DNA of 64,000 nucleotides from Bacteroidia bacterium (lineage in GTDB: Bacteria; Bacteroidota; Bacteroidia; Bacteroidales; Azobacteroidaceae). The stretch is from NCBI GenBank assembly GCA_025996865.1, contig BNTV01000012.1, positions 1 to 64,000 of the forward strand, in the 5' to 3' direction. The notes beneath the pieces are model-generated. The model was not told where the DNA came from. It ran no database searches and saw only the letters and a program-made list of their open reading frames with translations. Below are positions 1-58,382 of the stretch, piece after piece. Position numbers and translations under genes: made by a program. How positions within the stretch are numbered: position 1 is the first letter of the stretch; each line of letters starts with the position of its first letter.

Positions 1-1021
1 GAGTGCCGTGTTCGCCCAGCGCTCCCGCTATCTGTTCGCGCACCGTATCTTCCCAGGTGCCGTAATAATAGCCGTGCCTGACGGAAACGGCCCCCACGGT
101 AAGCCGGTTGCGAAAGTGTTCGATATCAGCGGGGCCGAAGGTACAGAAGACTCCCGTAATGGAATCGTCCGCCCACGTTACCCGTCCCTGCCTGTTGCCG
201 AACAGCACGGTGGACGGTTCGACACCCTTCACCCCGTCACCCATCCGGTAAGCCGCCGACATGCCTGAAATGGCGCCGGATGCGCTGCTTATATTCTCTA
301 CGCCTTCCACATCCCGAATCAAAAAAGTAAATTCCCGGAGCACGTTCTGCGGATAAAAATGCAGATACTGTGTCTGTCCGGGAACGGGCCGGACGGTGAA
401 AAGCGAGTCGTTGCGCGTCACAAAAAAATTGTAGGGATAAGGCTCGGTGACGGTGTTTTCCTCCGCTTCGCCCGTCGCCGCCCGGTTCATTGCGCTGTTC
501 GGCCCGTAAGAATTGTACAGGCCGGTGGCCGGTGCGCTGTAAGCCTCAAACAAATCCAGATCGTTTTCGTCTCGGAAATGAATGTATTCGTTGCCGTAAT
601 AATCGTAACAGAGCGGGATATAGGGAATGTTGCCGGGTATATCCATCCGTCCGCCGTCCACGGACAGGTTGGCGCGTTTATACTGCCGGCTGCTGGCGGC
701 AAACAGGTGGACACTCATCCCCTGCTGCGGTTTGTCGGCCGGGTTGATGCCGTCCCAATGGATGACGACCTCGACGGCAAACGCATCCCCGCAGGGATCA
801 TCGGCGCTCAGCTCCCGGTTTTCGCAGGAACAAAACAACAACAGCAGGTACAGGGTGAAAGGTAAAAGGTACAGGGTGCACGGTACACGGTAAACGGTAT
901 AAGGTTGCCAATACCGGTCGTGCACCGTGTACCCTTCACCCTGTACCTTATTTGCAGCGGCCTCTCCCCTCTCCTTGAGGAGAGGGGCAGGGGGTGAGGA
1001 TATATTGATATTGCGACTCAT
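1..1021 (-). CDS. DUF5119 family lipoprotein, fimbrial accessory (3' end outside window)
   Basis: The frame is open from an ATG at 1021 down to base 1, about 340 codons, and leaves the window without a stop. The body (for example VEVVIHWDGINPADKPQQG, then YIHFRDENDLDLFEAYSAP) resembles DUF5119 proteins, which in Bacteroidales lie beside DUF3575 and fimbrillin genes. The ATG lies one base after the DUF3575 stop, so the two are probably co-transcribed. A hydrophobic stretch ending LLLFCSC near residues 55-65 looks like a lipobox, suggesting surface or periplasmic lipidation. The first 65 residues are odd: residues about 8-24 come from a palindromic repeat (961-1000) and about 25-60 from seven-base tandem repeats (847-948). 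The true start could differ from the ATG used here. Family assignment is from pattern memory; moderately sure. Confidence 0.7.
   Translation of the reverse strand, partial: MSRNINISSPPAPLLKERGEAAANKVQGEGYTVHDRYWQPYTVYRVPCTLYLLPFTLYLLLLFCSCENRELSADDPCGDAFAVEVVIHWDGINPADKPQQGMSVHLFAASSRQYKRANLSVDGGRMDIPGNIPYIPLCYDYYGNEYIHFRDENDLDLFEAYSAPATGLYNSYGPNSAMNRAATGEAEENTVTEPYPYNFFVTRNDSLFTVRPVPGQTQYLHFYPQNVLREFTFLIRDVEGVENISSASGAISGMSAAYRMGDGVKGVEPSTVLFGNRQGRVTWADDSITGVFCTFGPADIEHFRNRLTVGAVSVRHGYYYGTWEDTVREQIAGALGEHGT
847..948. repeat. Heptamer array, GGTNNNN family, two opposed blocks
   Basis: Nine consecutive 7-mers beginning GGT (847-909; units such as GGTACAG, GGTGAAA, GGTGCAC) are followed by four units in the opposite orientation (921-948; TGCACCG, TGTACCC and so on). 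Read on the minus strand the array is in frame with the DUF5119 gene and encodes its N-terminal hydrophobic region. The opposed blocks could pair as an imperfect hairpin. Confidence 0.85.
961..1000. repeat. Palindromic GC-rich repeat inside a coding region
   Basis: CCCCTCTCCTTGAGGAGAGGGG forms a near-perfect hairpin and is followed by a G-rich run ending GTGAGG. It encodes the 'SSPPAPLLKERGE' part of the DUF5119 N-terminus. It resembles, but is not the same as, the CCCCCTAAAGGGGG elements at 20597, 39811 and 48826. Confidence 0.7.
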
Positions 1022-1022
1022 T

Positions 1023-2243
1023 TCAATCATTCAATTTATAAACAATTGATACTGCGGCCTGTGTGGGGCCGATATACCTGCGCTGTTTCGTGCTCCGTTT
1101 GGGATAACAGTCGGCGCACGAACTGTGATTATACTCGTTGTATTCCCCGCCCAGATAGCCAACTCCCAGGTTGAAATTCAGGTTCCACCGGCGGGAGAGC
1201 GGCAGGGAATAACCGACGGTCAGTCCCGCCGAATAGCTGAGGTTGCTGAGAAACCCCAGGGGTTCTCCCCCTTTGGGAAACAGGCGGACATCGTAAGTGC
1301 CCACCGCCCCGTAAATGCCGGTGAAAAATCCCGTCAGGGCTTGCGGGCGGTCGCCCCACCAGTAGCGGTTTTCTATCCATAGCATCTGGATGCGGTGGCT
1401 CCAGTAGTTGGGTGAACCGGTATCCCACCAGCTCCACGCACCTTGCAGCAGCAGGGACTGACGGTTGAAGGCAAGCTCTATCGAGAGGTTGGGAAGCAAG
1501 GCTGCGTCGTACAGCAGGTTGGTGCTCACGGCGAACACCCGGTGCGACGGTTTGTTCACCGGAACCTGAACGGGGGTGTCACGCTTGGCCGTGTCCTTAA
1601 GGACTTTAAGGTCTTTAAAGTCCTTAAAAAAATCCACCGACGGACTCCCTTTCACCGGCGGGATATAACTGCCATCGTCCATCAGGAGACGCACGCACAC
1701 ATATTGCAACTGGCTGAATATATTTGCCCGAAGGTATTTTTGCGTTGCAGGGGGAAGGCTGCGAAGTTCCCGGAGAAGCTGCTCTTCATCCTGCGTCCGG
1801 CCGGACAGGTAAAGGATTTTTCCCCTGTCGGGAACACCGGCGTCACTGGAGACTAAGGATTGAAAGCCTTCCCAGTCGATGCCCGCCGCTTTTTCGTCGA
1901 TGCGGTTGCGGTCAAATCCGGGATGCTTCCACAGGATATACGCTTCCATCGCTTTGGCGCGGGCTATCGACAGGGCGCGGTTGTGATCCGGCGTGCCAAT
2001 GGGCGAAGCGGCGCCGGTAATCAGTATGCTGTCGATGTGGGTATAGACTTCCGGCATGTTCAGCAGGAAATCCAGCGCCTCGAAGGCCTGCAGGTTGGTT
2101 TTGAAGTCGCGCTCCAGCTGCTCGCTGTCGATACGGAAGAAAAAGACTTTGAGGCCGGATGCCGGGTCGGTATCCTGCGAAAATGCGTTGACAGAGAAAA
2201 AAAAGAAAAAACTTAGTAAAATTATTCCGAAATTTTTTGTAAC
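1023..2243 (-). CDS. DUF3575 family outer-membrane protein (OmpA-like N-part), start unclear
   Basis: The stop is at 1023. The C-terminal half, from about VFAVSTNLLYDAALLPN onward, matches DUF3575, a beta-barrel-like domain found in Bacteroidales fimbrial loci. The N-terminal half carries an OmpA-like RALSIARAKAMEAYIL segment. The only ATG within this stretch is at 2057 and would give 344 residues without a signal peptide. The frame stays open and protein-like upstream, and bases 2240 to about 2172 encode a clean signal peptide (TKNFGIILLSFFFFF, then SVNAFSQ). There is no ATG, GTG or TTG between 2058 and the (GT)23 tract at 2282. Either translation enters through that tract, a rare start is used, or the start has been lost. 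The gene is GC-rich compared with the genes after 3 kb. Confidence 0.7.
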   Translation of the reverse strand, partial: VTKNFGIILLSFFFFFSVNAFSQDTDPASGLKVFFFRIDSEQLERDFKTNLQAFEALDFLLNMPEVYTHIDSILITGAASPIGTPDHNRALSIARAKAMEAYILWKHPGFDRNRIDEKAAGIDWEGFQSLVSSDAGVPDRGKILYLSGRTQDEEQLLRELRSLPPATQKYLRANIFSQLQYVCVRLLMDDGSYIPPVKGSPSVDFFKDFKDLKVLKDTAKRDTPVQVPVNKPSHRVFAVSTNLLYDAALLPNLSIELAFNRQSLLLQGAWSWWDTGSPNYWSHRIQMLWIENRYWWGDRPQALTGFFTGIYGAVGTYDVRLFPKGGEPLGFLSNLSYSAGLTVGYSLPLSRRWNLNFNLGVGYLGGEYNEYNHSSCADCYPKRSTKQRRYIGPTQAAVSIVYKLND

Positions 2244-2281
2244 TTGCGCGTTTTTAAAAAGATAGCGGCGAGTGGTCTCAG

Positions 2282-57340: not shown

Positions 57341-57352
57341 CATAAACCGTAT

Positions 57353-58333
57353 TTAAAAATTAGCATCAAACGCTATATCAGACGTTTCAAAATCTATCGC
57401 CTTAACCAGTTTGCAGGATTCTTCCGCTCCCTGCTCCCGGTTCATAGCGCTGTCTTCCCATTCGACGGAAAGCGGTCCTTTATATCCAATGGAATTCAGG
57501 GCGCGAATGATTTCTTCAAATTTTACTTTCCCTCGTCCCAAACTGCGGAAATTCCAATACCTCCGCGGATCGCCGAATGTAACGTGGCCTCCGAATACGC
57601 CGACTTGCCGGGGCGTGTCGCTCCAATACACGTCTTTCATGTGAACATGATAAATTCGTTTGGCGAAATGATAAATGAAATCAACGTAATCGACTCCCTG
57701 ATAAGCCAAATGGCTCGGATCGTAATTAAACCCGAAAGACGGGTGGTTACCGATTGCATCTAAGGCGCGTTGTGCGGAAAAGGTGTCGAAAGCGATTTCC
57801 GTAGGATGCACCTCGAGTGCAAACCGGATTCCCAATTTCTGAAATTCATCCATTATCGGCGTGAAACGGTCGGCAAAATCCTCATAACCTTTATCAATCA
57901 TTTGATCCGTTACGGGAGGAAAAGAATACAACAGGTGCCAGATTGAACTTCCGGTAAATCCGTTTACCGTGTCAATGCCCAGCGCTTTTGCCGCCCGGGC
58001 TGCCCGGATCAGCTCTTCGGCAGCGCGTTTTTTAACTTCTTCGGGATTGCCGTCGCCCCAGATGTAGTCCGGCAAAATATTTTGATGCCGTCCGTCAATG
58101 TTGTCGCAAATGGCTTGACTGGTCAGGTGGGCGGAAATAGCATACAGTTTCAAATCATATTTTGAAAGTAGATTTTTTATCCCCTGATAATAAGCCGGGT
58201 CGGTTTGCCGGACATCTAAATGAGCCGGAAGTCCAAGTTCCAAACCGTCGTATCCGAATGCTTTTGCTTTTTCACAAACGGTTTCTAAGGGGAGGTCTCC
58301 CCATTGTAATGTGCATAATGTTACTGGTCTCAT
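57353..58333 (-). CDS. Sugar phosphate isomerase/epimerase (xylose isomerase-like TIM barrel)
   Basis: This 326-residue protein has the pattern VTLCTLQWGDLPLETVCEKA, then FGYDGLELGLPAHLD, with FALEVHPTEIAFDTF, FGFNYDPSHLAYQGVDYVDF and YHVHMKDVYW (metal ligands His and Glu). There is no signal peptide, so it is cytoplasmic. It may rearrange a keto-sugar made by the neighbouring oxidoreductases. It is upstream of the second Gfo/Idh/MocA gene on the opposite side of a heptamer array and reads the same way. Confidence 0.85.
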   Translation of the reverse strand: MRPVTLCTLQWGDLPLETVCEKAKAFGYDGLELGLPAHLDVRQTDPAYYQGIKNLLSKYDLKLYAISAHLTSQAICDNIDGRHQNILPDYIWGDGNPEEVKKRAAEELIRAARAAKALGIDTVNGFTGSSIWHLLYSFPPVTDQMIDKGYEDFADRFTPIMDEFQKLGIRFALEVHPTEIAFDTFSAQRALDAIGNHPSFGFNYDPSHLAYQGVDYVDFIYHFAKRIYHVHMKDVYWSDTPRQVGVFGGHVTFGDPRRYWNFRSLGRGKVKFEEIIRALNSIGYKGPLSVEWEDSAMNREQGAEESCKLVKAIDFETSDIAFDANF

Positions 58334-58340
58334 AATTTAA

Positions 58341-58382
58341 TTGAAAATTGAAAGTTAAAAATTAAAAATTGAAAATTAAGAA
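58341..58382. repeat. Heptamer array TTRAAAA, six units, between two sugar genes
   Basis: Six 7-mers (TTGAAAA, TTGAAAG, TTAAAAA and so on) fill the whole gap between the isomerase ATG (58333) and the stop of the second Gfo/Idh/MocA gene (58384). Same period as the other arrays but different bases. Confidence 0.85.

Follow-up and report, generated by a model that had tools for sequence, protein, structure and literature searches.

Why should short tandem arrays that share a seven-base step but differ in sequence enter and end the genes of one bacterial genome? The question is raised by a stretch of 64,000 nucleotides (hereafter the window; positions 1 to 64,000 of contig BNTV01000012.1, assembly GCA_025996865.1) from a Bacteroidia bacterium of the Azobacteroidaceae. 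The window is our contig C12 of this organism's 5.4 Mb genome (G000), the assembly of which is 88% complete. The arrays belong to an imperfect heptanucleotide tandem class present in several Bacteroidales; we put at roughly one in two the probability that they arise from local seeds and evolve through whole-unit slippage and recombination between arrays. The arrays are anchored on stop codons at the 3' ends of genes, differ by whole units between paralogs, turn over at orthologous sites, fall into dialects and occur in a head-to-head arrangement.

Placement relative to genes was determined for 104 period-7 arrays, found regardless of sequence in a sample of G000, in the window (6 arrays) and in three other genomes of the genus (G022, G009 and G018). 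Gene calls came from our own codon model. A called stop codon was overlapped by 39 of the arrays and a start codon by 7 (two touch both), with 17 inside genes and 43 between genes. When the 87 non-intragenic arrays were placed randomly with their midpoints within noncoding DNA, 6.9 stop overlaps were expected (sd 2.5; none of 300 shuffles exceeded 16) against the 39 observed, whereas starts were not enriched (7 vs 7.4 expected). The arrays are mostly intergenic, the 17 inside genes comparing with 81.6 expected. In a comparison of periods restricted to non-intragenic arrays, 39/85 lay on stops at period 7 (6.3 expected) and 7/35 at period 8 (1.9 expected); periods 10–13, taken as a control, gave 0/44 with about 3 expected. 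Single cases were seen at periods 5 (1/6), 6 (1/5), 9 (1/11), 15 (1/4) and 21 (1/18). Periods 14 and 22, which are partly heptad multiples, gave 4/16 and 3/7, the period-14 examples shown being heptad-based. Stop anchoring was repeated in G030 (4/7, 1.1 expected), in loci of termite metagenome-assembled genomes (MAGs; 2/3, 0.1 expected) and in Parabacteroides loci (6/6, 0.6 expected), for which plain long open reading frames (ORFs) were used. At two P. massiliensis loci (L192 and L196) each convergent gene begins its own arm.

Arrays extend downstream from the stop codon, which falls among their initial units (offset -1 to 26). Among arrays with at least three units from the stop on, 27 of 37 consensus units begin with a stop triplet when read from the stop; the usual form is a stop triplet plus four bases (TAAAAAT, TGAGAAT, TAAGAAT, TAATGGT, TAGAGTG, TGAAGGG and others). 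Because 7 leaves a remainder of 1 when divided by 3, a stop triplet in the unit comes into each reading frame within 21 bases, so that growth past the gene end would be harmless. This layout could also be the product of selection. It is possible, though we consider it the less probable explanation, that the arrays are a selected 3'-end element which provides stops in all frames past the gene end, its paired arms folding into a hairpin for termination or protection of the transcript. The unit could then be any heptad that includes a stop triplet, so that a site could keep its array while the unit changes, and the same site is indeed occupied by different unit families. Selection is also favoured by stop anchoring that is marked at period 7 but weak at period 8, by stops in all three sense frames in 34/39 stop-overlapping arrays and by a slightly better conserved stop triplet. 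However, all-frame stops are automatic once a periodic unit contains a stop, close relatives are without arrays at the same genes and 17/104 arrays are intragenic.

The preference for period 7 was assessed in samples, which for G000 covered 464 kb out of 5.4 Mb, with a segment counted when 17 or more of 21 positions matched at lag k (the placement scan was looser, at 16 of 21). Order-3 Markov sequence served as the random control, with none for G030. Period-7 segments numbered 8 in G000 (400 kb), 5 in the window, 12 in G022, 48 in G009 (264 kb) and 7 in G018, while Markov sequence gave 0 or 1 (0 for both the window and the 400-kb G000 sample). None was found in 212 kb of G012 and G017, which were taken as low-array samples, yet G017 has 54 AATT-type matches genome-wide. 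Period-8 segments numbered 3 in G000, 0 in the window, 9 in G022, 5 in G009, 9 in G018, 2 in G012 and G017 together and 0 in G030. The contrast was sharpest in G009, with 48 segments at period 7 against 5 at period 8 and 2 each at periods 10 and 11, and in G030, with 7 against 0 at all other periods within 2–13 (68 kb). Period 7 is thus the strongest short period in four of the five array-bearing genomes sampled (G000, G022, G009 and G030). The expectation that it would exceed other periods holds for these four, only narrowly for G000 (8 vs 6 each at periods 9, 12 and 21), and fails in G018, where period 8 leads by 9 to 7. Arrays of periods 9 and 12 are mostly intragenic (20/31 each, four genomes). 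The period-7 density of the window is 78 per Mb compared with 20 per Mb in the sample of its own genome. In ten named loci of Tannerellaceae, Parabacteroides and Dysgonomonas (127 kb) there were 5 segments at period 7, while no other period exceeded 1, and no period-7 peak appeared in 44 Flavobacteriia loci (528 kb) or 21 other loci (240 kb), with 2 segments each.

Pattern searches showed 104 overlapping matches to (GGTNNNN)3GGT in G000 vs 2 for the reversed pattern, and the GGT pattern was matched, very unevenly, in 35/58 genomes (G000 included). The corresponding reversed controls for TTRARAR and AATTNNN were dropped as evidence, because the reversed pattern is itself or another heptad family. 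As a separate observation, degenerate period-8 and period-11 arrays stand beside heptads in the G022 samples L106–L125, some of them as inverted pairs.

Within the window, arrays were located with Tandem Repeats Finder (TRF) and by direct reading of the sequence. The arrays and the genes that they touch are as follows.

847..909, plus strand: purine-rich heptad arm of nine GGTNNNN units within the 5' part of the minus-strand DUF5119 gene (TRF, direct reading)
920..948, minus strand: second arm of the pair, inverted so that GGTNNNN reads on the minus strand, meeting 847–909 head to head (direct reading; minus-strand match 924–947)
2..1030, minus strand: lipoprotein gene of the DUF5119 family, cut by the window edge and with an uncertain start codon (PF17145, E 3e-21; translation)
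22330..22358, minus strand: GGTAAAA-type array holding the GNAT stop codon, weak, TRF score 30 (TRF, direct reading)
22339..22896, minus strand: GNAT acetyltransferase gene, C-terminus ...AKGEG (PF00583, translation)
41560..41601, minus strand: GGTGAAR array holding the DUF3109 stop codon (TRF, direct reading)
41582..42148, minus strand: DUF3109 gene, C-terminus ...KTVKGEG (PF11307, E 3e-80)
43977..44006, plus strand: AATTGAG array holding the ABC-F stop codon (TRF, direct reading)
42361..43989, plus strand: ABC-F ATPase gene, start possibly 42394, C-terminus ...ELVEN (PF00005, gene call)
46881..46916, plus strand: GGTTAGT/GGTGAAG array within the PyrC coding sequence (TRF, direct reading)
46935..46951, minus strand: short inverted partner (CCTTTCACCGTGCACCC) of the PyrC array (direct reading, orthologous loop)
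45681..47072, minus strand: PyrC-like dihydroorotase gene, start 47042 or 47072 (PF01979; the enzyme name is that of the first-pass annotation)
47044..47114, minus strand: array that steps 7+7+8, lies between GT2 and PyrC and includes the stop codon of GT2 (TRF period 22, 89%)
47084..47875, minus strand: GT2 glycosyltransferase gene, C-terminus ...NKVKGEK (PF00535)
58339..58384, plus strand: array of TTGAAAA/TTAAAAA units that occupies the whole interval separating two minus-strand genes and touches the stop codon at 58384 (TRF, direct reading)

A first-pass annotation of the window had described eight arrays with a strict seven-base step in three sequence families. It listed seven places, and period-7 arrays are present at all of them. 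The step is seven bases in general, but the array at 47048–47114 is a 22-base superunit stepping 7+7+8, and period-8 arrays exist too. Set in one phase, the units form two groups only, GGTNNNN (847, 22331, 41560, 46882 and 47048) and AATTRAR (43979 and 58341), since GTTAGTG at 46882 becomes GGTNNNN once its phase is shifted. The array at 22331–22358 scores under the threshold of the later period scans. The annotation had correctly placed the stop codons of the GNAT, DUF3109, ABC-F and GT2 genes inside arrays, as read from the letters and translations. Its derivation of the DUF5119 signal region and of an internal PyrC peptide from arrays likewise agrees with the translations: the core of the DUF5119 signal peptide (TLYLLPFTLYLLLLFCSC) is encoded by the array, as is an internal loop of PyrC when compared with its orthologs. 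In the loci sampled, orthologs without arrays have other C-termini, so that these ends do not look like ordinary conserved coding sequence. The ORF at 359–865 gave no Pfam match.

Orthologous sites can differ between relatives. Between GT2 and PyrC the window has an array, G022 a different one and G018 an empty gap. The DUF3109 gene of the window closes with about six units; its counterpart in G018 has two to three and that in G022 has none. A readable gene end was available for 29 of the 30 DUF3109 loci returned, and every tail was different. At L149 in G000, 74 extra bases of paired arms stand where G022 has one AATTGAA, and at a site shared by G000 and G018 (L148/L350) the centre is inverted (14/17 bases match when inverted vs 9/17 when direct). 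Nine orthologous sites that are empty or array-poor were compared; four held a unit-like seed, defined as a best 10-base unit match exceeding 95% of random segments from the same contig, vs 0.45 expected.

The views that the arrays form one period-7 class with varying units and that in general they are not copies of one element were supported, with the reservation that the 847 array has near copies in its own genome. The pair at 847–948 comprises a purine arm (847–909), a short centre and a pyrimidine arm (920–948), and it recurs with the same centre at five other places (C13, C34, C37, C27 and C179). Such recurrence would be expected of mobile palindrome copies, of the repetitive extragenic palindrome (REP) or miniature inverted-repeat transposable element (MITE) type, whose stem merely happens to consist of heptads; an ortholog in G017, moreover, has a different palindrome where G000 has an array (L103/L140). 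This origin is nevertheless improbable: the 847 copies have flanking DNA in common, so that a larger segment, the DUF5119 locus, was duplicated; other pairs differ in centre, arm length and unit order; and there was no match in Rfam at gathering score within the window. Between fixed anchors the first arm measures 57, 57, 57, 78, 36 and 36 bases in the six DUF5119 copies, and these steps of 21 bases equal three units, which keeps the reading frame. A palindromic CTCTCCCC...GGGGAGAG element adjoins the DUF5119 array (window 949–1000) and accompanies most DUF5119 copies; a palindrome like it sits at the G000 array site in G017 (L140).

The arms of inverted pairs show a marked polarity. The purine arm came first in 35 of 37 pairs, a count that takes in 40 loci picked by the GGT or TTRARAR pattern, and in 13/13 of those from samples chosen without a sequence pattern. 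Left out of the count were 20 neighbouring pairs, 7 of them direct and 13 unclear (7 with the purine arm first, 6 not). The two exceptions are of AGTTACC type with nearly equal purine content, and in several G009 pairs the purine difference between arms is slight. At gene 3' ends the purine strand was directed away from the gene in 28/31 cases, and at 5' ends, less clearly, in 7/11. These counts dropped arrays that were intragenic, lacked a gene on one side, lay more than 40 bases from the gene edge or were less than 20 bases from equidistant, together with nine of ambiguous composition. With orientation assigned instead by unit similarity to stop-anchored arrays, the figures were 20/24 at 3' ends (18 unassigned) and 7/10 at 5' ends (9 unassigned). 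Polarity at 3' ends can be attributed to the purine-rich stop triplet.

Matching between arms was compared within families. Own arms were not closer to each other than to arms elsewhere for the TTG-type of G000 (p 0.25, n 11) or in G004 (p 0.92, n 6), whereas GGT-type arms of G000 were better matched to their own partner (p 0.007, n 6). In G009 own arms also matched better (8 pairs, p 0.0002), but there families were mixed and the pairs had been prefiltered for arm similarity, which makes this cross-family test unusable. That arms are kept complementary was rejected as a general property, being seen within a family only in the six GGT-type pairs of G000; with this exception, within-family arms no better matched to their own partner tell against the selected hairpin considered above.

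Largely independent arms, dialects and the purine-first order (35/37, and 13/13 in pattern-free samples) are what would be seen if a polymerase extended 3' ends at an intergenic break with purine-rich heptads, from a single-stranded template or from none, and the ends were then joined, which would leave head-to-head arms whose unit order is unrelated. The convergent pairs with a different unit published for Xanthomonas (PMC4692102) would fit as well. We regard such polar end addition as unlikely. It does not predict anchoring on stops but not on starts, unit-like seeds occur at 4/9 empty sites and the sole enzyme candidate searched, RVT_1, was not found in the array-rich genomes G027, G030 and G016, which are drafts 86–90% complete. 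With RVT_1 found in 21/38 genus genomes but not in these three drafts, the suggestion of a reverse transcriptase unique to array-bearing genomes was not supported.

We favour the reading in which the arrays grow from what is already at the site. An array would begin where the edge of a gene by chance resembles a unit, and this seed would lengthen or shorten through whole-unit replication slippage. A 7-base loop is too large for MutS repair, so that periods 1–4 would be suppressed and period 7 would not. Recombination between arrays would homogenise units and sometimes flip arrays, and within coding sequence only multiples of three units would survive. Some arrays were co-opted, into C-termini, the loop of a protein, a signal peptide and, in a relative, putative promoter spacers. 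Slippage, escape from repair and recombination are the parts of this scheme that we infer. Loss of mismatch repair was rejected as a cause, since mutS1 is retained in array-rich genomes: it scored above cut-off in 35/38 genus genomes (including G000, G004, G009, G016, G018, G022, G027 and G030) and below it in G001 (53% complete), G014 and G020.

Comparison of units in four genomes showed that each has its own dialect: identical units made up 11.5% of 1814 within-genome array pairs, 1.3% of 3319 between-genome pairs and 0.6% after letter shuffling. Neighbouring units differ most often by A/G (159/380 mismatches), as adenine mutagenesis of a fixed heptad template, of the kind known from diversity-generating retroelements, would produce. 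That explanation is extremely improbable, and adenine-specific mutagenesis was rejected, because variation is not confined to adenines: A and T sites differ equally between neighbouring units (0.140 and 0.138), and G and C sites more (0.257 and 0.536).

Several observations weigh against growth from seeds by slippage and recombination. Slippage alone does not account for the dialects, nor does it suffice where one orthologous site carries different unit families in different relatives (L158/L359, L160/L344). Five of the nine empty or array-poor sites had no better-than-chance seed, and what looks like a seed may instead be the remnant of a larger array. In one DUF5119 copy (L035) the second arm carries an insertion of one base. 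Within arrays the stop triplet is better conserved than the rest by a small margin (0.902 vs 0.844, Fisher p 0.011), and the fifth unit position equals it at 0.902. Period 8 is ahead of period 7 in G018. The array at 58341 in the window has an orientation opposed to the polarity rule, and the second arm between co-directional genes lies away from any stop codon, beyond the reach of the stop-triplet argument. Finally, neither strand of the Xanthomonas unit GGGAATC contains a stop triplet, yet its arrays are published as following the same placement rule.

Tandem heptanucleotides of Calothrix are named short tandemly repeated repetitive (STRR) sequences. In the first-pass annotation no described system was known to build such arrays; heterogeneous heptamers, convergent pairs and proximity to stops have, however, been published for Xanthomonas and Nostoc (PMC4692102). 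That paper describes GGGAATC and GGGGA(C/T)T heptamer repeats with heterogeneous units, of which two Xanthomonas genomes have 186 and 183 arrays, 89–93% intergenic, with 70 and 75 convergent pairs. The sense strand lies at most 50 bp from stop codons (overlap included) and the antisense strand near starts, length and sequence vary between close species, and the repeats are framed as G-quadruplex sequences with their function left open. It also cites earlier work on heptamer excess in bacteria, and several different tandem heptamers in one Calothrix genome. Mrazek (2007), as cited in PMC4692102 and PMC4679880, found heptamers favoured, slippage and polymerase contact length being proposed as the cause. 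PMC4679880 reports TAACTGA direct repeats in Beggiatoaceae, Cyanobacteria and five Bacteroidetes; in a Beggiatoaceae genome most of them lie immediately ahead of start codons. In a library of open-access papers no paper on the present Bacteroidales arrays was found beyond PMC4679880 and unrelated matches, and array strings sought literally in paper text gave one unrelated match.

The Bacteroidales arrays resemble the Xanthomonas and Nostoc repeats in their heterogeneous 7-base units, mostly intergenic position, convergent pairs and sense strand at 3' ends. They differ in that many units are A+T rich and without G-tracts, that a genome has several unit families, that the unit usually contains a stop triplet and that sites switch family between species. 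No run of three G occurs in units of AATTGAG, TTAATGG, AATTAAA and AATTACG; GGTGAAG-type units do form GGG, so that exclusion of G-quadruplexes does not cover the whole GGT group. With the TAACTGA repeats, on the cited account, they share intergenic heptamer arrays, occurrence in some Bacteroidota and a unit with stop triplets, but not the one fixed unit or the position upstream of starts, which here are not enriched (7 vs 7.4 expected). Unlike the general heptanucleotide simple sequence repeats of Mrazek (2007), as characterised in the two citing papers, they are strongly heterogeneous and stop-anchored, and unlike REP or MITE palindromes their centres are unrelated, save in the segmentally duplicated 847 family. 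The heptamer class is therefore already known, and the additions are the stop-codon unit, non-G units, dialects and the same-site unit switch. Stop-codon anchoring by units unable to form G-quadruplexes looks new, and it looks useful for tracing how such arrays are made. The same layout in such units argues that period and gene end, rather than G-tracts, are the common cause. Tentatively, there might be a general, sequence-agnostic heptad system at bacterial gene ends, in which a polar process would add or maintain 7-base units beginning on the stop codon and directed away from the gene, with genome dialects, across Bacteroidales, Xanthomonas and Nostoc, whose units are unrelated. If so, it would be a new 3'-end element beyond G-quadruplexes, either selected (all-frame stop and hairpin) or built by end extension. 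Why bacteria favour heptamers among long repeats, an old question, becomes testable in cultivated Parabacteroides. Protein ends, a loop and a signal peptide have here been taken from repeat DNA, and caution is needed since C-terminal tails in these genomes can derive from repeats.

In G009 a promoter-like TAnnTTTG box was found on an outer side of 13/48 arrays (control, 93/630 AT-rich 40-mers), lying -1 to 6 bases from the array end in 12 of the 13; in seven samples (L327, L330, L335, L336, L339, L341 and L343) heptad arrays directly precede the box. A TTG at 19–20 bases upstream, the distance expected of a -33 box, occurred in 6/14 box-bearing sides vs 48/161 AT-rich TAnnTTTG background sites, which is no clear excess. 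As the box is present in just 2/32 arrays of G000, G018, G022 and the window, the promoter arrangement is not general.

The best named relatives of PyrC are from Dysgonamonadaceae MAGs (85, 84 and 78% protein identity, in a search from which own-genome records were possibly excluded), which we take to be of termite-gut origin, and the window genome is close to termite-gut Dysgonamonadaceae. Other features of the window include a perfect (GT)23 dinucleotide repeat at 2282–2327, about 690–790 bases upstream of the next plus-strand gene in a genome which has MutS, and possibly a phase-variable site. A short sequence at a gene end (57310–57337) recurs more than 10 times in the relative G058, often in both orientations, and about 50 bases at 48882–48935 have several dispersed similar copies in G018, with identity of up to 98%. 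The ABC-F and DUF4143/AAA genes (42361–45607) separate PyrC from DUF3109, which form an adjacent pair in L186, L189 and L190; this difference, next to arrays, represents either a gain in the window or a loss in those three loci.

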